A stretch of 24,786 nt of DNA, taken from IMG/VR virus record IMGVR_UViG_3300037882_002764, positions 1 through 24,786 of that record. The stretch is one strand, 5' to 3'. Below are positions 8,600-22,625 of the stretch, piece by piece. The stretch is from a virus. Every line of letters begins with the position of its first letter. The stretch's first letter is position 1. A program made the translations under genes and the position numbers. Below the pieces are notes generated by a model. That model was given only the letters and a program-made list of their open reading frames with translations. It was not told the origin of the DNA and made no database searches.

Positions 8600-10234
8600 T
8601 CACATCTTGTGAACGTCAAAATCATCGCGCCGTTGCGTCCAGCCGCTTTGCACGCGCCGGTCGCCGCCTTTGTCCCGGCCGAGGGACCGCGCCCCCTGAA
8701 TGCGCCGCCACCCGCCGATGGCGTACTGCAGGGCGTCCTGCCAGTCGGAATAGCCGTTTTTCTTGTCGGGCTTGTCATCCCACTCAGCCCCCGGCAAGCC
8801 GCCTGGGCGCTTCTGGTAACGATAGCCTGAGGCCATGCCATTGATCCCGTGTTTGTTCGTGGGGTGTGGCGAAATGCGAAGACCCCGTGCATCGCCCTGC
8901 ACCACGCGGCGCAGCTCTGCCCGCACCGTGTCCAGCCGCAGGCCCACCTCGTTTGATCCACCAAAGGGAATGCGGATTGGCCGCTTCATGATGTCGAGGC
9001 CGAATTCATGGAAGCTCAGCTGCCCGCCCTCGCTGTCACCGCCATACTGGCTGGCAGGGTCGGCCCATATCTCCACTTCGGTGCAGCCACGAAAGAACAC
9101 GTCTTGTGTTTCCTTCATCATTTCCCAGAACCGCGCTGCACCACAGCGCCCCTCAGGCACTACGCTCATGATCACGTTGAGGAAGCCCGCCCCATCCGGC
9201 TGCAGGAACACACCCGCCGGCCGCAAGCCCGCCGTGCTGCCGTCCGCCCCGATGATCAGCGGCAGGTTTGGGTTTGGCGCAATCATCTGCTTGGCCACAT
9301 GCAGGTGTTCCCGGAAGTCCGACACGAACACCGGCAAGCCGTCGCGGCTGTAGCCCCATTCGTTCAGCACGAAGCGCCGCAGCCGCCAGTCTTCCCACGT
9401 CTGGGCCTTGGCCGTGTAATAGTCCGCATCAAGGCGGTGCAGGTTTTCAGCCTCAGGGTTCACCCGTGCCCGCACAATCTGGCCGTCAGCGGCCCAGTCC
9501 ACAAGCAGCCCGGCAGGCGCCGTGTAGAGCTTCCGGTTCATCACCGGGTGCGCAACCAGCGTGTCGTGCAGATAGTTGTTCTTGTCGGGCGCGTTGAAGG
9601 CCCCCAGCACCTGCCGGGTGCGCTTCTCGCCGTCTGCAAGGTCACCCAGACGGGGATAGCGCCCCACGCGCTCCTCGCAGGTTTCCAGCACGTTCAGGCT
9701 GAACTGGTCGCTCTCATCAAGGATGATGCGGGAATATTCCGCACCCTTCAGGATTTCGTCGATCGACGTGTCATCAAGGCCCTTGAAGTCAGTTTCCATT
9801 TCAATCTTCACCGGGTTCAGGCTGCCTGCCCGGCTGGTGTCCTGAAAGCGCAGGGTGTGCGTGGCAGGCCGGTCTTCACCGCCCGTCCAGGTGCCGCCGG
9901 GGTAATTGGTGGGAAACCACTCACGCCAGCTGCGCACCACCGTGCCCTTGGCCGTGCGCCAGGTCTTGCGCAGGATCAGCGCCCGGTCGCGCACCCAGCC
10001 ATCGCGCCCCAGTCCCTGCCCAGCCCCGTCATGCACCCGCTTCAGGCACATGGTGGTGGTTTTCCCCTGACCCACAGGCCCCATGAGAAAAGCCGTCAGG
10101 GAAGCATCATTCAGGTACGCCTGGCTGGTCGGCCCCGGTGGCTCCCATGTGGTCAGGTTGGCCACCTCAGGCTCAAGCGCCCGCAGTTCATCGCGCTCAC
10201 CCTCACTCAGGTCTTGGGGTTCAAATTCATCCAT
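8600..10234 (-). CDS. Terminase large subunit
   Basis: This encodes 544 aa from the ATG at 10232-10234. The ATPase domain has Walker A GPVGQGKTT at about residues 52-60 and a Walker B-like IILDESD at about 168-174. The C-terminal nuclease part has acidic candidates in LIIGADGS (about 325) and EIWADPAS (about 386). It pumps DNA into the prohead through the portal and cuts the concatemer. The start is TGATG-coupled to the stop of the small upstream frame. An alternative start 9 bases upstream (10243) is in frame. Confidence 0.9.
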   Translation of the reverse strand: MDEFEPQDLSEGERDELRALEPEVANLTTWEPPGPTSQAYLNDASLTAFLMGPVGQGKTTTMCLKRVHDGAGQGLGRDGWVRDRALILRKTWRTAKGTVVRSWREWFPTNYPGGTWTGGEDRPATHTLRFQDTSRAGSLNPVKIEMETDFKGLDDTSIDEILKGAEYSRIILDESDQFSLNVLETCEERVGRYPRLGDLADGEKRTRQVLGAFNAPDKNNYLHDTLVAHPVMNRKLYTAPAGLLVDWAADGQIVRARVNPEAENLHRLDADYYTAKAQTWEDWRLRRFVLNEWGYSRDGLPVFVSDFREHLHVAKQMIAPNPNLPLIIGADGSTAGLRPAGVFLQPDGAGFLNVIMSVVPEGRCGAARFWEMMKETQDVFFRGCTEVEIWADPASQYGGDSEGGQLSFHEFGLDIMKRPIRIPFGGSNEVGLRLDTVRAELRRVVQGDARGLRISPHPTNKHGINGMASGYRYQKRPGGLPGAEWDDKPDKKNGYSDWQDALQYAIGGWRRIQGARSLGRDKGGDRRVQSGWTQRRDDFDVHKM

Positions 10235-10512
10235 CACACCCAACCCCCAACCCCGTGGACCGCAGCAAGAGTTTTCCGGGCAAAATCAGCCCCCACTTTT
10301 GGCCATCCGGCCCCTATGTGGGAGCCTGCTCCCCTATAGGGGGGAGGGGGGGGCGTCTCGGGGGAAGCCAGTTCCGCCGCCCTGCCCTGCCATGCCAGCA
10401 CCGCATGGCCCGCCGCCGTGGCGTGGTGCGCCCTGGTCGATATGCCAAAATGGCAGGACGGGCCGGACGGCGCGCCAGTTGCCAGATGATTTGCAATCAC
10501 GTGGTTATTCAT
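10234..10512 (-). CDS. Putative small protein between the terminase subunits
   Basis: This encodes 92 aa, start MNNHVIANHLATG. I support it on three points. It has GGGGA 5 bases before its ATG, the ATG overlaps the small-terminase stop, and its stop is TGATG-coupled to terminase large. Without it there would be a 260-bp gap. The sequence has no recognised domain and carries a run of five Pro encoded by a C-rich stretch on this strand. It could instead be a chance frame over a regulatory or packaging sequence, since palindromes and G-runs lie inside it. Confidence 0.45.
   Translation of the reverse strand: MNNHVIANHLATGAPSGPSCHFGISTRAHHATAAGHAVLAWQGRAAELASPETPPPPPYRGAGSHIGAGWPKVGADFARKTLAAVHGVGGWV
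10311..10364. other. Clustered palindromes and G-run between terminase genes (possible packaging signal or G-quadruplex)
   Basis: The stretch holds CCCCTAT twice (10311 and 10331), a GGGAGC/GCTCCC hairpin (10320-10333), the palindrome CCCCTATAGGGG (10331-10342), and G-runs of 6, 8 and 5 on the plus strand (10339-10344, 10346-10353, 10360-10364). The location between small and large terminase is a common place for cos or pac. No cos or pac function can be shown from the sequence. Confidence 0.4.
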
Positions 10513-10897
10513 TGCTTTCCCCTTTGATTTCAACGTCTTGCGCATTTTGTCGGACGGCATCTAGTCGGACGGCTTCGCCCGCCTTTTGCATAAGCTGTTG
10601 ATTTTGCATGGAATTTCTGTTGGCCACGATTACCAGCGTTGGCAGCTGGTCCTCGTTCACTTCCACCTTCACCGGCATCTTGGAATGCTGGTACGGCATG
10701 GCCGCCACAGCCGCCTGCATCTTCAGCGCCATCGCCCTGGCACCGGCGGCACTGCGCATCAGCTTGGCCAACTGCGCATGCTCCATGGAGTAAATCTCGC
10801 CCAGCACATCCGCCGGATCACGGTGCCCCAGCTTTTCAGCCAGTTCCGGCGGCACACCCACCGTCCGCTTGTTCTTCGATCCCTTAGGCCGAGCCAT
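10505..10897 (-). CDS. Terminase small subunit
   Basis: This encodes 130 aa from the ATG at 10895-10897, preceded by a GAGGGG ribosome binding site. The N-terminus MARPKGSKNK is the basic tail seen in many phage small terminases. A helical region follows (about residues 25-70: DPADVLGEIYSMEHAQLAKL...ARAMALKMQAAVAAMPYQ) and then a beta-rich oligomerisation-like end (PVKVEVNEDQLPTLVIVANR). It should recognise the packaging site and load the large subunit. The call is supported by sequence pattern and by its place as first gene of the late block. Confidence 0.75.
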   Translation of the reverse strand: MARPKGSKNKRTVGVPPELAEKLGHRDPADVLGEIYSMEHAQLAKLMRSAAGARAMALKMQAAVAAMPYQHSKMPVKVEVNEDQLPTLVIVANRNSMQNQQLMQKAGEAVRLDAVRQNAQDVEIKGESNE

Positions 10898-11364
10898 GTG
10901 CGCCCACCCCCCTCGATAAACAATGGCGGAAGCAGCCCGAGGCCAAAGCCAGAGCAAAACAGGTGTCAACGGCTGTCAACACTCCGTCAGTGATATAAGA
11001 TATTGATTTATATAGATATATAACAACTTTTGACGTTATGACGATATGACATATACATACCTCCATGCAGGCGCGCGCGTGTGCGCATACATGAGGCCGT
11101 TTCGGTGATTTTGCTGTCAAATCGTCAATTGTGGCTGATCGTTCAATCATTTCAACGTCTTGAGACTTTGACACCACGTTGACAGTGGCTTTTCGTACTG
11201 TCAAAACGTCAAAGCCGCGCTTTCGGCCATGACGCCACAATAGCCCTGCCCCGCCCACGTCAACGCGCCACCCCGAACTTCTTCTGGACAGCCGAGGGGC
11301 GGGGGTGCGGGTGCCCACGCAAGGGTGAGACACGGAATAAACTGCGACGGAATTTTGCATGGGT
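10898..11364. other. Non-coding region between replication and packaging genes; candidate origin or late control region
   Basis: No convincing gene lies here. The plus strand carries an AT-rich block (10990-11060) with the palindrome TTATATA-GA-TATATAA (11008-11023). It also has a tandem 8-bp array beginning TGACGTTA at 11031 (TGAC at 11031, 11039 and 11047). Ten copies of YGTCAA or its complement lie at 10964, 10974, 11030, 11115, 11123, 11168, 11179, 11199, 11207 and 11258. AT-rich DNA with iterons just downstream of primase and helicase genes suits an origin. TTGACA is also a sigma-70 -35 box, so promoters or operators for the late genes are an alternative. Confidence 0.5.
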
Positions 11365-11568
11365 TTACTCAGGGGCGGCGCGGGCTTTGACGCGGAACAA
11401 TGGGCGGTATTTGCCCATGTATCGCCATTTCATCAGGCCATCAGGAAGCGATGTAGAGTAAGCAACAATCATGTCAGGCTGGTCATAAGCCGCCTTTGTC
11501 CACACCCTGCTTGGTCGGATTGTGCATCCCATCTGTAACAGGGCCTCCACAGTCACAATGCCATCCAT
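11365..11568 (-). CDS. Hypothetical small protein
   Basis: This encodes 67 aa from the ATG at 11566-11568, with GGAGGGG (inside the end of the helicase gene) at a good distance. The ATG lies just 1 base after the helicase stop. The sequence MDGIVTVEALLQMGCTIRP...KWRYMGKYRPLFRVKAR is not recognised. It is the last gene before the AT-rich gap, so probably the end of the replication block. Confidence 0.6.
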   Translation of the reverse strand: MDGIVTVEALLQMGCTIRPSRVWTKAAYDQPDMIVAYSTSLPDGLMKWRYMGKYRPLFRVKARAAPE

Positions 11569-11569
11569 C

Positions 11570-13543
11570 CTAGAACCCCTCCACATCCTCAATCACATCA
11601 TCATTCATCACCGCCCTGCCCGCCGTGCGGCCCGTGGCGACATCCAGTGCAGCCAGGTCCAGCAGCAGGCAGCGGCTGGAATGGCGGTTGATGGTCACCC
11701 GGTTCTGGTTGCCCAGGCCTTTGAGAAACACGCCATCCGGCGCATCGCGCATGGCATTGGCCCAGGCACCATGGCCCGATGGCCCGGCACTCCACGGCGA
11801 GCCTTCAAAGATGCGCGCCAGCTGGGGCGAGGCCGTTGGAATGGCCAGTATCAAGCCCCGTGGCCGCGTCATGCCCATGGGCCATTTGATTTCGCGCACG
11901 TCGATCAGCCGCAGCCCCACCTGCGCCAGCTTGGTGTTGCAGGACTTGAACCCGCCGTCACTGTCGCCGGCCTCATAGTTTTCCAGCACCGCACCCACCG
12001 TCAGCTGGCCGCCACCGCGCCACATGTCGATGTTGCGGGTGAACAGGTGGCCAATGCAGCTGGCCCAGTTGTCGGTCTGGTCCTCATGTTCTGGCAGCGA
12101 GGCAATGGCCAGTTCCTTGGCCCAGGCGGCAATGCCATCGCCCACGGGATAGCCAAAGCGCGCCAGCCCTTCTTCGCCCAGCAGGATATGGGCACAGCAC
12201 AGCAGCGTGCCGAAGGTCTTGCAGCCGCGCTCATCATGGCCACCGTCCTGCAGGGCCTGCCGGTACAGCGCAAACAGCGCGTTGAACTGGGGCCATCCAT
12301 CCATCATGCGCCGCATGACCTTGCTGCCCAGTTCATCATCATCACGCAGCACCGGCTTTTCGCCCCGGTCGCGTTCAGGCGGCCTGCGCAGCGAGAGAAT
12401 GGCAAGGCGCGAAAGGTCAGCCGGGTTGATGCCCGGCAGGTTGATCATGGACCCCAGGAAGGATGATCGACACTCAAACTCAATGCCATTGTGGTTGCTG
12501 CCACCGCGCAGCATCACACCACCCGAATAGCTTTCGCGCATCAGCTTGAAAATGCGGAAGGCCATGCTGCTGTCCGACTGGTTTTCCAGTTCATCAAGGC
12601 CAATGGGCCGCGCGTCCTGGTTCACCTTCTGATAAATGCCCGCCGGTGTGGTGTCCGTGGTGGACAAGATATAGGGCCCAAAAAACACTTTCAGAATGTC
12701 TTGCAGGGTGGACTTGCCGCGCCCCTTGTCGCCCACCACCACGATGGAGGGGCGCACTTCCATGGCGCCGGAAAACATGGCCACGCCCAGCCAGCCCAGC
12801 AGCAGCAGGGGGTCCGTCTTGGGCCGTGCCCAGCTGAAACGGTTGAACAGGTCCAACATCTGTTCAGCCGCATCTTCATTCACCGGCTGGTGCCAAGGGT
12901 GCAGGATGGCGGCCATGCGCGGATAGACCTTGCCCGACACTTCGCCCGGCACCTGCATCACGCCATTGACATAGAGGCTGTCACCGCAATGCACCACCAG
13001 GCGGCCCTGATCATCCATCCACACGCCACGCCCGCGCACCGCGTCCAGATGGTCGAAAATGCCCTTGCGATAGGCCTCTCCCCACAGGGATTGTCGCACC
13101 CTCTCGGTGCGGAACGTGTCCACCTTGGCAGGGCCAAGGGGCTTGCCATCCTTGGTCTTGGGGGCTTTGCCGAAGCGCGGCCACGCCCAATAGACATACC
13201 CAATGCGGTCACCGAAGATGCGCTCAATCACGCCCTGGCCGATTTGTTGTGACGCGGGCAGGCAGCACACCTGCCCTGCGGCATCCAGCAGCCAGAGGTC
13301 CCCCTTGGAATGGCCCAGCACCTGCACCGGGCAGCCATCGGGAAATTCATCGGCCTCAGGCTCACCACCGCCTTCACCACTGCCATCACCCAGCGACCGC
13401 AGCCCCCACATGCCCGGCGGAATGCCATTGCGGCTGCCGCCAATGGGCGGGTCCACCTCAGGCTTGCGCAAGGCCTGAAGCGTCACCGCCCCAACACCTT
13501 GCGCAATAATGGCCCTCACCTGCTGGCGGCCCTTGTCAGTCAT
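11570..13543 (-). CDS. Replicative helicase-like ATPase (SF3-like)
   Basis: This encodes 657 aa. The ATPase core starts near residue 240, with Walker A VVGDKGRGKSTL at about 268-279 and a Walker B-like GLDELEN at about 312-318. A sensor-type segment follows (SSFLGSMINLPGINPADLSRL, about 360-380), as in SF3/VirE-type phage helicases. The N-terminal third is beta-rich and unassigned, and the C-terminal third is also unassigned. Together with the upstream primase it should drive phage DNA replication. GGGG-type ribosome binding is visible before the ATG at 13543. The SF3 placement is by motif spacing; no motif is missing outright. Confidence 0.75.
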   Translation of the reverse strand: MTDKGRQQVRAIIAQGVGAVTLQALRKPEVDPPIGGSRNGIPPGMWGLRSLGDGSGEGGGEPEADEFPDGCPVQVLGHSKGDLWLLDAAGQVCCLPASQQIGQGVIERIFGDRIGYVYWAWPRFGKAPKTKDGKPLGPAKVDTFRTERVRQSLWGEAYRKGIFDHLDAVRGRGVWMDDQGRLVVHCGDSLYVNGVMQVPGEVSGKVYPRMAAILHPWHQPVNEDAAEQMLDLFNRFSWARPKTDPLLLLGWLGVAMFSGAMEVRPSIVVVGDKGRGKSTLQDILKVFFGPYILSTTDTTPAGIYQKVNQDARPIGLDELENQSDSSMAFRIFKLMRESYSGGVMLRGGSNHNGIEFECRSSFLGSMINLPGINPADLSRLAILSLRRPPERDRGEKPVLRDDDELGSKVMRRMMDGWPQFNALFALYRQALQDGGHDERGCKTFGTLLCCAHILLGEEGLARFGYPVGDGIAAWAKELAIASLPEHEDQTDNWASCIGHLFTRNIDMWRGGGQLTVGAVLENYEAGDSDGGFKSCNTKLAQVGLRLIDVREIKWPMGMTRPRGLILAIPTASPQLARIFEGSPWSAGPSGHGAWANAMRDAPDGVFLKGLGNQNRVTINRHSSRCLLLDLAALDVATGRTAGRAVMNDDVIEDVEGF

Positions 13544-13571: not shown

Positions 13572-14192
13572 TCAGCGCTTCTTTGGCTTTGGCAGCGGCG
13601 CAGCAATCTCGGCATCACCGGCCAATTCAGGTGTGGCGGAAGGTGGGCGAACACCCTCCGCCACGTTGCTGTTGGCCCCGCCATCCGGGGGAACGGGCGC
13701 GGGCGCTGCATCACCCACCACGGCATCCCCCGTGGCAGGCAATTGGGTTTCATCAATTTCAAGTGGAGGGATCACATAGAAGTCTTCATTGGCAACACGC
13801 AGTCGGGCTTCAAGCGCCCGCGCTTCCTCCTGCGCCTTGCCCAGTTCCCGCGCACACAGGCCGACCACCGAGGCAAAGGCCCCATAGGCCACGCGCGCCC
13901 ACAGGTCGAGATCGTCAAAGCGGTTGGCCGGAAAGCGATGTGCACCCAGCTCACCCGCCTTGATGAATAGCTGTTCCGCCCCCACCACAGCACCTTTGGC
14001 CGTGCGCTCCACCACATAGGCCCCAAGGGCATTCACCATGGCCTCGCCATCCACCTCATGGGCAAAGCCGCCATCGCAAAACCAGTAATTGGGGTCAAAC
14101 TCAGGCCCCAGCACCTGGGCCAGCCGCAAGGCAGCGGCATGGCCAATGGCCGTGGCATAGCTGGTCACATCAAGTCCAAGAATGTCTTGCAT
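13572..14192 (-). CDS. Hypothetical protein in replication block
   Basis: This encodes 206 aa from the ATG at 14190-14192, which is TGATG-coupled to the primase stop and has AAAGGA upstream. Residues 1-130 appear helical and folded. Around residue 115 there is a likely coiled-coil segment (ARELGKAQEEARALEARL). The last 60 residues are Pro/Ala-rich and end in a basic KPKPKKR-like tail. No family recognised. Its place between primase and helicase suggests a replication accessory such as a single-strand binding or loader protein, but no motif shows this. Confidence 0.65.
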   Translation of the reverse strand: MQDILGLDVTSYATAIGHAAALRLAQVLGPEFDPNYWFCDGGFAHEVDGEAMVNALGAYVVERTAKGAVVGAEQLFIKAGELGAHRFPANRFDDLDLWARVAYGAFASVVGLCARELGKAQEEARALEARLRVANEDFYVIPPLEIDETQLPATGDAVVGDAAPAPVPPDGGANSNVAEGVRPPSATPELAGDAEIAAPLPKPKKR

Positions 14193-15304
14193 CACACAGT
14201 TCCTTTCAGTTGATCATTGAAATCTTTGCCCACGGTGGAACGCACGGCCACGGCGGGCTTGTTGAAGCCGATGAGGCGCTTCATCGCCTTGTTGAAGCCG
14301 TTCTGTGCCTGCGGCTTGGCCCAGTCATTGTCCTGCGCCACCACGAAAGCAGAGGCGCAAGGGTGATCCGGCACATTGCCAAGGTTGGAGAGAGAAGACG
14401 CCGCCCACACGCGCAAATCCGCATCGGCAAAGGCAAGTGAAAGCCCGTCTTCAATGCCTTCACACAGCATCAGCGGTGCAGCCTTGCCCTGCCCTGCCAT
14501 GCTGTCCGGGTCCAGATTGCCCTTGCCATTGTTCAGGCGGATCACCAGCCCGAACACCGCAGGCCACATCAGCTTGGCCTTTTCCACATCCGCCTTGCCC
14601 TGGCCATCGCCGCGCAGGAAGGTCAGGTGGCAGGCCTTCATCACGCCCGCCCCATCCACCATGCCTGCAATCATCGCAGGCATCTGGGGCCGCGCCTTGT
14701 CCATCCAATAGGTGGCCTGTGGCAGAAAGCGCAGCCAGCGCCGGTCGCGGTTGGGCATGTCCCGAATGTCAATGCCCCGCGTCCGCAGATAGCGCTCGGC
14801 CAGTGTGCCTTCGAGGTCTGGCATGGCTTGCGAAAACATGTGGCAGGCCGCGCGGATATTCTTCACGCGCTTGGCTTCGGCGGCAGCATCCACAATGGCC
14901 TGCCGCTTTTCAATGGCGCGAGACGTGGCCGCGCGCTGCTCCTCACTCATGCCGCGTAAGCCATAGCGGTCTTCCGCCCAGGCCACGGCGTCTTTGAAGG
15001 CCACGCCCTTCACCAGCATGATCAGGTTCAGGCCATCGCCCTTTTCTTCTGTCACAAAATCAATCCAGCCACCGGCCTTGGGTCCGCTGATGTAGATGGC
15101 AAAGGCCGAAGGGTTGTCAGATGCACGGTGCGGCGGCAGCGCAGAGTAAGTGTGCCCATGCACCCGGCCACCCGGCACCAGTTCCTGCGCCAGCCGCCGC
15201 GCATCCTGGCGCAAGCGGTCTTTCACAATCTGCACCCGCCGCTCATAGGCCGCGCGCGCATCCCCATGGCCCTGCCCACCGGAGCCTTGGCGAAGGTGGG
15301 TCAT
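14192..15304 (-). CDS. DNA primase with Toprim domain
   Basis: This encodes 370 aa. The N-terminal 100 residues have the pattern GGWIDFVTEEKGDGLNLI, typical of the N-terminal domain of phage primase/helicase-type Toprim proteins, with no CHC2 zinc finger. The Toprim core has the catalytic-Glu motif CEGIEDGLS near residue 280 and a likely metal-binding FVVAQDND near 320. It makes RNA primers for the helicase encoded two genes downstream. The ATG overlaps the upstream stop (ATGA). Confidence 0.8.
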   Translation of the reverse strand: MTHLRQGSGGQGHGDARAAYERRVQIVKDRLRQDARRLAQELVPGGRVHGHTYSALPPHRASDNPSAFAIYISGPKAGGWIDFVTEEKGDGLNLIMLVKGVAFKDAVAWAEDRYGLRGMSEEQRAATSRAIEKRQAIVDAAAEAKRVKNIRAACHMFSQAMPDLEGTLAERYLRTRGIDIRDMPNRDRRWLRFLPQATYWMDKARPQMPAMIAGMVDGAGVMKACHLTFLRGDGQGKADVEKAKLMWPAVFGLVIRLNNGKGNLDPDSMAGQGKAAPLMLCEGIEDGLSLAFADADLRVWAASSLSNLGNVPDHPCASAFVVAQDNDWAKPQAQNGFNKAMKRLIGFNKPAVAVRSTVGKDFNDQLKGTV

Positions 15305-15748: not shown

Positions 15749-15964
15749 CTACTTCTGGAAATATTGCAGGGGCTGGCCGGGTTCCGGCGGGCGCACCATG
15801 GCGGCCACGGCCTCAGTCAGTTGCCGGTTCAGGTTCACCGCCTTGTGCAGGTCCAAGGCGAATTCCAAGGGCTTGCCGTTGGGCTGGCACATCTTCACCA
15901 CCCAGCCGCCATCACCGTCCGAGAACACAAAGCAGGTTTTGGACTGGTCATTGAGAGAGGTCAT
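15749..15964 (-). CDS. Hypothetical small protein
   Basis: This encodes 71 aa from the ATG at 15962-15964, which overlaps the ParB-like stop (ATGA). The sequence MTSLNDQSKTCFVFSDGDGG is followed by a short beta-like section (WVVKMCQPNGKPLEFA) and a helix (LHKAVNLNRQLTEAVAAM). No family recognised. It is in tight translational coupling with the ParB-fold gene, which may hint at a shared job. Confidence 0.6.
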   Translation of the reverse strand: MTSLNDQSKTCFVFSDGDGGWVVKMCQPNGKPLEFALDLHKAVNLNRQLTEAVAAMVRPPEPGQPLQYFQK

Positions 15965-16875
15965 GCCTTGGCCTCCCAATGCCGGTTCACCACGTCATGG
16001 CGCAGGCGCAGGCTGGCCGCCACCATGGATCGTATGAAGCCGCGCCGCTTCAGTTCAGCAATGCGCCGGGCCGTGTCGTCTGTTTCCTTGGCAAAGCCCG
16101 GCACTTCCACCCGCACCAGCGCCGCTGGCTCAGCCGCAACAGGCACCGCCTGACGTGTGCTGGCGGCAATGATGGCCGTGGCAATCTCCTGTGGTGTGGC
16201 TTTGCGCGAATTCATGGTGTGCGACAACAGCCGCGTTTTCATGTCGTCCAAAACATGCGAGGTCACAAAGCCCGGCACATGGCCATGGGGCTGGGCCTTG
16301 ACCAACATCAGGCAGGCCCGCAGAAAGTCCGGCCCGTTGCGGTCCAGAATGCGTTTGAAACGAATGACGGCATTGGTCTGCCAGGGCTTCTGGTTCACCG
16401 CCGACACCGGATAGGTCAGAACGTCAATGCCATGCGCATTGGAAATGTCGCGCACCGTCACGGCCCAGTCGGCACCCGCCGCAAGGGCCGCCTTGTACAC
16501 CTGCGTGGCTGAAATGCGCCGCACCTGGCCATTGACAGCCGCAAAAATATCCGCCGCCTGCTTCACCCTGGCCTGCACAATGGCACAGGGCACCCGGTCA
16601 AACCCCAGCGCCAGCGCCGCCATGCTGCGGTGCTGGCCATCAATGATGGCATAGCGCGGCAGGGAGCCATTGATCGGCGTCACGATCACCGGCGCAAACT
16701 TGCACCATTCAAAGCGGGCGGCAATGGCGCGCACATGGCGCTCACCTTCACGGCCCACCTCACGCTGATAGGCTTGGTCAATGAACAGACTGTCCAGTGC
16801 CAGCCATTCCAGCCTGGCCGGTGGTCCGGCAGACGTGGCACCGGGCGCAATCACCAGTTTCTCAAGTGGGCGCAT
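15961..16875 (-). CDS. ParB/Srx-fold protein with DGQHR motif
   Basis: This encodes 304 aa from the ATG at 16873-16875 (AAGG upstream; a GTG at 16881 is possible). Residues 20-110 form a ParB/sulfiredoxin-type N-terminal domain. It has a D..Y.R-like entry (FIDQAYQREV, about 32-40), APVIV (about 61-65) and the signature YAIIDGQHRSMAAL with DGQHR at 79-83, in the place of the ParB GERR nucleotide loop. The C-terminus (about 270-304) looks HTH-like (RIAELKRRGFIRSMVAASLRL). DGQHR proteins of phages are of poorly known role; nucleotide binding and DNA binding are plausible. A parS-like site in the same genome makes this gene notable. Confidence 0.75.
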   Translation of the reverse strand: MRPLEKLVIAPGATSAGPPARLEWLALDSLFIDQAYQREVGREGERHVRAIAARFEWCKFAPVIVTPINGSLPRYAIIDGQHRSMAALALGFDRVPCAIVQARVKQAADIFAAVNGQVRRISATQVYKAALAAGADWAVTVRDISNAHGIDVLTYPVSAVNQKPWQTNAVIRFKRILDRNGPDFLRACLMLVKAQPHGHVPGFVTSHVLDDMKTRLLSHTMNSRKATPQEIATAIIAASTRQAVPVAAEPAALVRVEVPGFAKETDDTARRIAELKRRGFIRSMVAASLRLRHDVVNRHWEAKA

Positions 16876-17089
16876 CGCCACCTTCCCCTTCCAGTGCCGT
16901 CAGCCCGCACACCACCAGCAGCAGCGCCTGGGTGAACAGGGGCCGGTGGGCATTGGGCATTTTCACAAGGCCGTCACTGAGCGCGGCATGGGCGGCTTCG
17001 CGGCTCTGCCGCTTGTCCGCCAGCACCTTGCGCAGGTCGCGTTCCATGGCCACCAGCGCCGCACGGGTATGATCATGGCGGGCACTCAT
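16862..17089 (-). CDS. Hypothetical small helical protein
   Basis: This encodes 75 aa. The start overlaps the preceding stop (ATGA) and the end overlaps the ParB-like gene by about 14 bases. The first half is charged and helical (TRAALVAMERDLRKVLADKRQSREAA). Residues 50-66 are hydrophobic (LFTQALLLVVCGLTALE), too short and interrupted for a certain membrane span. No function recognised. Confidence 0.6.
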   Translation of the reverse strand: MSARHDHTRAALVAMERDLRKVLADKRQSREAAHAALSDGLVKMPNAHRPLFTQALLLVVCGLTALEGEGGDAPT

Positions 17090-17621: not shown

Positions 17622-17745
17622 TCCTGTAACGATTGGACTGATTTGGCTGTTCCTGTCAAGCCCACTCATGGAACAGTTTGTGGAAATGCGTATGATGTAC
17701 AACCCGGCCATCGTTTCAACACCACCATGTGTGGGGAGCCGGATA
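17622..17745. promoter_or_regulatory. Divergent cro/cI control region
   Basis: For leftward transcription there is a perfect -35 TTGACA (plus-strand bases 17654-17659) but only a weak -10. For rightward transcription a TATGAT -10 lies at 17691-17696 with a poor -35. The inverted pair CTGTTCC (17647-17653) and GGAACAG (17670-17676) overlaps these elements, and TTCCTGT occurs twice in direct order (17621-17627 and 17650-17656). These are the likely operators for CI and Cro. Confidence 0.6.
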
Positions 17746-21033: not shown

Positions 21034-22362
21034 ATGCCACGCAAAGCCACCGCCTCCATCCTCCACGTGCACTGGCGCACCCGCGACGACTGGGCAACCG
21101 CCCATCCGCGTTTCGCACCGGGCCCACGCTTGCAGGCCCTTGGCTTCAAGTCCCGTGACCTGAAACATGATGACGGCACCTGGTACAGCTTCGAGGAAGC
21201 CGCCGCCTTCTCCCGCGCTGTTGAGAATGAAGCCACGTCACGCCAGCACCAGCAGCAAAAGCCCGCCCGTCTGCCTGCCATCGCGCGCGCCCATGAAAGC
21301 CGCACCTTAAGCCAACTCTGCCATGACGTGTTCACCCTGCCGGAATTCTCAGGGCGCACATTGGTGGAAGGCAAGCGTGTGCGCGCCGCTCTCTCTGCCG
21401 TCACCGTGAAGGGCTATCGCTATTGCGCCACCAGTGTGGAAGCCGCCTGCCTGCGCATGCAGGAACAGGCCAGAACCCGCCTCAGCCTGTGGCACACGCC
21501 CGCCGCTGCCCTCACCACGCCCCTCATGCAGGCCCTGCTGCATGACGTGGAGCGCCATTCCGGCCTGGCCAAGGCAAGGGCCGTGCGCGCCTTCTTGAGC
21601 CAGATGTGGACGCGCCTTGGCCGCCGCGAACCCGGCACCAACCGCCACCTGTTTGACGACCTGGAACGCATGCCCAGCCTGCCGGGCCGCGTCACCCCGT
21701 GGGAGCCGGAACAATTCTGGGCCATGGTCGAAGCAGCGGACGCCATGGGCCTGCCCGCCATGGCCGATAGTTTCTTCTGGGGCGTCATCACGGGCCTGCG
21801 CCAGACCGACCGCCTGCGCATGACGCGCGCCAGCATCAGCGACACACACATCACCATCACCCCCAGCAAGACGGCGAATAAAACCCAAGCCGTGGTGCAG
21901 GTGAAATATGCAGGCCTGTTGCGCCAAAGGCAGGAAGCCGCCTGGGCACGGCGCCAAGGCTGGCCCGTGGCATGGCCCCACATGCTGGCCGATGAGCAAC
22001 GCCAAAGGCCATGGCCCGAGGAAGCCACCGACTATCGCCACACCTTTGCCAGGGTGCGTGAACAGGCCGTGAAGCTGCTGCCATCCTGCGCCACTCTGAG
22101 AGATCAGGACCTGCGCGACACCAACCAGACCTGGCTGGACCGGGCCAACGTGGATCCCGAACTGATGCAACTGGCCGCAGGCCACAGCTTCAACCGCCAC
22201 ATGAGCCAAATCCAGAAGCGCCACTACGTCGCCCAGAACCAACCCAGACTGGATGCAGCAACCGACCTGCTCACAGCCTACCTGCTGAAACACATGCCAA
22301 CCCACCCCACCGTCATCCCCGCGAAAGCTGGGAACCAGCTTCCACAGGAGAATGAGGGATGA
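21034..22362 (+). CDS. int: Tyrosine recombinase / integrase
   Basis: This encodes 442 aa from the ATG at 21034; an upstream in-frame ATG at 20881 would place the leader hairpin inside the coding region. Catalytic candidates: Arg256 in ITGLRQTD, Lys279 in the beta hairpin (PSKTANK), Arg361 in DLRDT (with Asp359 in the usual His place), His384 in GHS and the nucleophile Tyr398 in KRHYV. The N-terminal part is the arm- and core-binding region. It recombines attP (about 1.2 kb downstream) with a host tRNA-Lys gene. The last 15 residues (HPTVIPAKAGNQ...) come from a REP-like repeat. Confidence 0.85.
   Translation: MPRKATASILHVHWRTRDDWATAHPRFAPGPRLQALGFKSRDLKHDDGTWYSFEEAAAFSRAVENEATSRQHQQQKPARLPAIARAHESRTLSQLCHDVFTLPEFSGRTLVEGKRVRAALSAVTVKGYRYCATSVEAACLRMQEQARTRLSLWHTPAAALTTPLMQALLHDVERHSGLAKARAVRAFLSQMWTRLGRREPGTNRHLFDDLERMPSLPGRVTPWEPEQFWAMVEAADAMGLPAMADSFFWGVITGLRQTDRLRMTRASISDTHITITPSKTANKTQAVVQVKYAGLLRQRQEAAWARRQGWPVAWPHMLADEQRQRPWPEEATDYRHTFARVREQAVKLLPSCATLRDQDLRDTNQTWLDRANVDPELMQLAAGHSFNRHMSQIQKRHYVAQNQPRLDAATDLLTAYLLKHMPTHPTVIPAKAGNQLPQENEG
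22301..22353. repeat. REP-like palindrome at the 3' end of the integrase gene
   Basis: It contains CCGTCATCCCCGCGAAAGC followed by TGGGAACCAGCTTC. A stem of CCCCGC with GCTGGG (one C-T mismatch) and a GAAA loop lies at 22317-22332. This is the widespread GTCATCCCCGCGAAAGCGGGG-type element that encodes VIPAKAGIQ-like tails. It ends in ACAGGAGAAT, which supplies the ribosome binding site of the next gene. Confidence 0.65.
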
Positions 22363-22625
22363 GGCTCTTTCCTCAAGACCAAATGCCGAGAACAAAACGC
22401 ATCAAGCGCATGCTCGTCATTGACGCGGGCGAACACCCGAGAGGCGGCAAGGGCATTGTCTTTCAGTGCGGCCAGTGCGGACATAACACAGGCTGGATTG
22501 CCGATACCTTGTCACTCACCGAAAACAAGCGCGGGCTTCCATGCCCAACATGCAACTCACCAACCCCACCCACCGTCACCCCGGCGGAAGCCGGGGCCCA
22601 GCTTCAACAGGAGAATAACACATGA
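22359..22625 (+). CDS. Zinc-ribbon phage protein
   Basis: This encodes 88 aa; the ATG overlaps the integrase stop (ATGA). Residues 18-29 (RMLVIDAGEHPRGG) and KGIVFQCGQCGHNTGW, with Cys37/Cys40 and Cys62/Cys65 (CPTC), give a probable zinc ribbon. Similar small proteins are common in alphaproteobacterial phages with no known function. The C-terminus from about residue 69 (PTPPTVTPAEAGAQ) is encoded by a second REP-like repeat. Confidence 0.7.
   Translation: MRLFPQDQMPRTKRIKRMLVIDAGEHPRGGKGIVFQCGQCGHNTGWIADTLSLTENKRGLPCPTCNSPTPPTVTPAEAGAQLQQENNT
22571..22616. repeat. Second REP-like palindrome, at the 3' end of the zinc-ribbon gene
   Basis: CCCCGGC (22579-22585), GGAA loop, GCCGGGG (22590-22596) form a perfect 7-bp stem. 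The flanks match the copy at 22301-22353: CACCGTCA before, and CCAGCTTC-ACAGGAGAAT after. This copy also ends in the ribosome binding site of the next gene. Confidence 0.65.

Follow-up and report, generated by a model that had tools for sequence, protein, structure and literature searches.

The viral DNA analysed here (the window, 24,786 nucleotides comprising positions 1 to 24,786 of IMG/VR record IMGVR_UViG_3300037882_002764) carries a 300-bp interval crowded with a single short motif, and the question is what this interval does. An earlier note on this DNA had offered an iteron-type origin or a dense operator array, and a packaging site and a partition site also have to be weighed. The evidence below, drawn largely from comparison with related replicons, indicates that 10964–11263 is very probably a phage replication origin resembling those of SaPIs and PICIs, with iterons that would be read by the C-terminal domain of the phage helicase.

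The repeat array and its gene setting

The genes around the array lie on the minus strand, in an order that runs from the lysogeny region (~17.4–18.3 kb) through a ParB-like gene (15961–16881), a Toprim_3/DUF7146 primase (14192–15304, 370 aa) and a helicase of the same module (11570–13543, 657 aa, AAA+ core about 240–400), the presumed origin-binding initiator, to the array, an ORF in the terS position (10505–10897, presumed small terminase) and the large terminase gene terL (8600–10243). Primase and helicase are separate genes, and the window codes for terminase and portal relatives. As had been noted, the array comes right after the helicase: its centre is ~0.5 kb 3′ of the helicase stop at 11570, with one 75-aa ORF between. 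Elsewhere in the window, at 22310–22350 and 22571–22615, the similar stretches CCGTCATCCCCGCGAAAGCTGGGAACCAGCTTCCACAGGAGAAT and CCGTCACCCCGGCGGAAGCCGGGGCCCAGCTTCAACAGGAGAAT end neighbouring plus-strand ORFs and resemble a dispersed host-type repeat serving as an ORF end.

Ten YGTCAA/TTGACR hexamers fall within 10964–11263, exactly the interval first noted, with starts at 10964, 10974, 11030, 11115, 11123, 11168, 11179, 11199, 11207 and 11258. Across 500 dinucleotide-shuffled windows the densest 300 bp held five YGTCAA copies, and local shuffles of 10900–11360 averaged 0.64 and never exceeded 5; the cluster is thus real and far beyond shuffled sequence. Relaxing the motif to YGTCA yields 14 sites, the ten plus four near-copies, against 2.3 expected locally.

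The array consists of clustered 5–7-bp iterons arranged with two-fold inversion around an alternating purine-pyrimidine tract; one of its sides also includes an AT-rich spacer. Its helicase-distal outer block (10964–10989, plus strand; TGTCAA at 10964 and 10974, CGTCA(G) at 10985) is separated by the spacer (10990–11029, GC 0.17), a candidate DNA unwinding element, from an inner block on the minus strand (11030–11051; TTGACG at 11030, (A)TGACG at 11039, (A)TGACA at 11047) that advances in exact 8-bp steps. The helicase-proximal half has an inner block on the plus strand (11115–11128; TGTCAA at 11115 and CGTCAA at 11123, 8 bp apart) and an outer block on the minus strand (11168–11184; TTGACA at 11168 and 11179), and four further iterons lie beyond this symmetric core (11199–11263; TGTCAA at 11199, CGTCAA at 11207 and CGTCAA at 11258, all plus, and TGACG at 11230, minus). 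The smaller features described earlier are likewise present, namely pairs 8 or 10 bp apart (10964/10974, 11115/11123, 11199/11207), the tandem 8-bp TGAC array (11031, 11039, 11047) and, within the AT-rich spacer, the palindrome TTATATAGATATATAA at 11008–11023. Mirror symmetry in the window is modest (4 pairs, a number matched by 2.5% of the randomisations). No DnaA box (TTWTNCACA) occurs near the array, and the single match in the window, at 14580, is at chance level.

At the centre of the array, and missed in the first reading, is a 23-nt alternating purine-pyrimidine run (11071–11093, GCGCGCGCGTGTGCGCATACATG), the longest in the 24.8 kb and of a length reached about once in 300 shuffles.

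These counts also bear on the proposal that the interval is a dense operator array, made of TTGACA-like promoter elements or of repressor or activator sites for late genes and held in common with the cro region. Such an array would suit a position between replication and packaging genes, TTGACA does resemble a −35 box, and single copies do exist at 17654 (cro) and 15685 (DnaA-C-like gene). However, 29 copies lie outside the cluster in the rest of the window against 22.1 expected, so that these two are single sites at chance density and give no evidence of one phage regulator reading all three places, as had been supposed; an operator code common to array and cro was rejected on the same count. 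The one promoter-like site in 10400–11700 (0.8 expected) uses none of the ten copies, and the corresponding arrays of relatives have letters unlike TTGACA. We consider an operator function highly improbable.

The array in relatives of the helicase

Scans of viral contigs with single proteins (helicase, terminase) came back without relatives. With an alignment of three helicase sequences as the query, 12 loci from viruses and 26 from genomes were retrieved, for the most part alphaproteobacterial; two phage records (L002, L003) bring the set to 40, a number that includes some near-copies. The family is widespread in alphaproteobacterial prophages although no Pfam model matched it, and in PHROGs it is listed (phrog_21086/phrog_35358) as of unknown function or as 'DNA primase'. 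At the syntenic place in these relatives YGTCAA occurs at chance counts, with no enrichment. We therefore rely on an unbiased scan of the loci for clusters of 5-, 6- or 7-mers, which as a positive control ranks the known crr and ori of phage P4 as its top two clusters.

In 39 of the 40 loci the strongest 6-mer cluster is a one-motif array, and in the remaining locus (L037) the array ranks second, behind a CAGCA-type repeat. Among these loci, L040 is the only one whose array is not 3′ of the helicase gene; wherever a terminase was detected, the array comes ahead of it. Its letters differ by lineage, with motifs that include CGTTACC, GGTTCTG, GGTTCCA, GGTTGCA, TGTTACC, TGTCCCG, TGGAACA, GAGACAC, TGAAACC and CTAACCA; the window motif, NTTGACR, is more degenerate than that of most relatives, and aligning motifs between lineages needs a choice of strand, made here by block order. 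Of the expectation that the motif would be conserved, the array has survived (39/40) and the letters YGTCAA have not, and because the array persists while its letters change, a lack of motif conservation, which had been taken to count against an origin, would have been a misleading guide.

Including small plasmids, more than 40 related replicons carry an array of this kind, usually just past the helicase gene. Further carriers of the helicase family with arrays are Bdellovibrio phi1422, Serratia MQ-4, Acinetobacter Acjo_20, Synechococcus S-H1, Pseudomonas ZRG1 and a Phaeobacter phage-plasmid; some of these arrays are weak or lie as far off as about 4.5 kb. A Leisingera plasmid (L042) has the helicase with only a weak array. 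Phage ZRG1 also has dense ATCGGG/ATCCTAC repeats inside a structural-region gene (~39726–40050), apart from its candidate origin array at ~25501.

Most arrays have a common geometry: an outer block, ~41 bp, an inner block, ~50–90 bp, an inverted inner block, ~41 bp and an inverted outer block, with inner-block iterons that step by 8–9 bp in most relatives. The window array follows this four-block plan, with its four extra sites added. Spacings are identical between L020 and L021, and likewise between L031 and L033; roughly half of the loci reach significance for strict mirror symmetry. Of 31 loci, 26 have their lowest-GC 40-mer helicase-distal of the array centre, usually within the ~41-bp spacer. 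The central tract recurs as well, since the longest or second-longest alternating run of the whole locus falls in the array in 38 of 42 loci tested, and the single longest run falls in the largest gap between iterons in 25 of 35, where we estimate ~0.2 loci by chance (35 × ~75 bp/~13.5 kb). The placement suggests a possible physical role in opening the origin. A 31-nt alternating run is also seen in phage BcepC6B, which does not have this helicase array, directly at the end of its terL gene (2742–2772 of that locus).

The same loci contain the main evidence for a different function, that of a pac/cos site for packaging, which the product of the presumed small-terminase gene directly downstream would recognise. 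Among the phages, the distance from array centre to terL start is steadier (sd 212 bp) than that to the helicase stop (sd 937 bp). We read this as the result of accessory genes inserted between helicase and origin, and several phages do carry accessory genes there. Two further observations speak against packaging: the array is 5′ of the helicase in L040 and L052, and around the terminase genes of BcepC6B, whose terL is related, nothing comparable to the array is seen.

A second rival is a partition (centromere) site for the product of 15961–16881, which matches ParB-like families; partition sites can be arrays of short repeats. Yet in most array-bearing loci no ParB-like gene was detected, and the small Arsenophonus plasmids, which have arrays, list none, so that this function appears barely credible.

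The candidate reader of the iterons

The 8–12 kb Arsenophonus plasmids with this helicase are informative here. Their array immediately follows the helicase gene on its 3′ side, a long way from terS, and plasmids without an annotated terS still keep it. Just 3′ of the terS gene in L043 (~6501), L044 (~9026) and L054 (~6976) is a cluster of 5–6 copies of CTACAAG, probably the TerS recognition site, with letters unchanged in all three; it is missing in L055 and L058, which list no terS. An invariant cluster at terS, with helicase-side iterons that differ between the same plasmids, argues against packaging, as do the position of the array and its retention where terS is not annotated, and we judge a packaging site quite improbable. 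For the origin the same comparisons, in location, geometry and linkage to the helicase across phages and small plasmids, strongly support the suggestion of an iteron-type origin placed after the helicase.

The helicases of L044 and L054 are identical at 417 of 427 positions (98%) over the N-terminal and AAA+ part, whereas the C-terminal domain matches at only 94 of 139 (68%; Fisher p 3e-21 against the rest), and their iterons are GGTTGTA and GCTAACA, respectively. Domain and iterons differ together in this pair, and it is mainly from the Arsenophonus plasmids that the helicase's own C-terminal domain, and not Cro or the DnaA-C-like protein, is judged the likely reader of the array. Plasmids of the same strain also differ in their iterons (paPv13/paPv15; paNv_CAN17/18), and L043/L054 (strain aPv) and L044/L058 (strain aNv_CAN) combine related helicases with iterons that differ, which is what one would expect if compatibility were determined by the iterons. 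In phage pairs, C-terminal divergence does not cleanly separate those with the same iteron from those with different ones, and sliding-window covariation between helicase and iterons is noisy. The residue-base association with the lowest p is between K at residue 617, in the C-terminal wing, and G at iteron position 1; resting on three independent changes and picked post hoc, it is suggestive only.

The predicted helicase model (pLDDT 84.7) has as its best PDB match SaPI5 Rep (7ola, E 7.8e-9), accompanied by other D5-like helicases, with modest TM-scores and no Pfam family by sequence. By our reading of the model's secondary structure, the C-terminal domain (about 484–640) comprises two winged-helix-like units; modelled in isolation, it gave no significant PDB match.

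Comparison with known origins and a proposed mechanism

The SaPI/PICI rep-ori (PMC6092414; PMC7581432) is the closest in organisation, having an origin that immediately follows the initiator helicase gene on its 3′ side, short iteron sets with an AT-rich region, iteron letters that vary between elements, and a helicase that the window model resembles in fold; a PICI pri-rep-ori supports plasmid maintenance (PMC6092414). In contrast to these satellites, the window belongs to a phage that encodes a terminase and a portal of its own, its helicase has no Pfam match, and its array has four mirror-symmetric blocks where theirs have two iteron sets, an AT-rich spacer that is off-centre between two iteron blocks, and a central alternating tract. 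Phage P4 shares short iterons in both orientations, with a 43-bp spacing between opposed iterons, and a crr directly 3′ of the alpha gene. P4 alpha, however, is one fused primase-helicase, and crr consists of two direct 120-bp repeats that are not mirror-symmetric, unlike the inverted blocks and separate proteins of the window; no long alternating purine-pyrimidine tract was seen in P4 crr or ori. The Arsenophonus plasmids and other phages with phrog_21086/phrog_35358 helicases have the same helicase family, a 3′ array and the same general geometry, although the Arsenophonus replicons are plasmids, mostly linear and several with an annotated protelomerase, and have an AT-rich array centre. A classical Rep_3/RepE iteron origin, with DnaA boxes and long direct iterons, differs from the short, bidirectional iterons of the window with no DnaA boxes nearby.

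The best reading of the sequence comparisons is thus that the window holds a four-block dyad variant of the SaPI/PICI-like origin, with a conserved central alternating tract, in a phage that has its own structural genes. A bolder proposal, which we regard as possible but on the doubtful side, is that this is an undescribed class of phage origin, in which a mirror-symmetric four-block array is joined to a Z-DNA-prone central tract that aids opening, and the C-terminal domain and array are re-coded together under incompatibility. A literature search, mainly of openly available papers, returned nothing relevant on alternating tracts or Z-DNA at such origins.

At an origin of the SaPI/PICI-like type, each half of the array would be bound by one helicase oligomer, with the C-terminal domain contacting the iterons. 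This symmetric assembly would strain the DNA, so that the duplex opens at the AT-rich spacer, perhaps at the central tract too, and two helicase rings can load, onto the two strands; the phage primase would then prime, and the host polymerase synthesize. Between lineages, iteron letters and the DNA-reading domain of the helicase would change together, a plausible reason being that replicons sharing a cell would interfere with one another if their iterons were the same.

A similar layout recurs in small plasmids as well as in dozens of phages and prophages. With the natural matched initiator-iteron pairs, L044/L054 among them, the code by which initiators of this class recognise DNA can be put to a direct test, and the cluster scan offers a practical way to locate candidate origins in uncultured phages.
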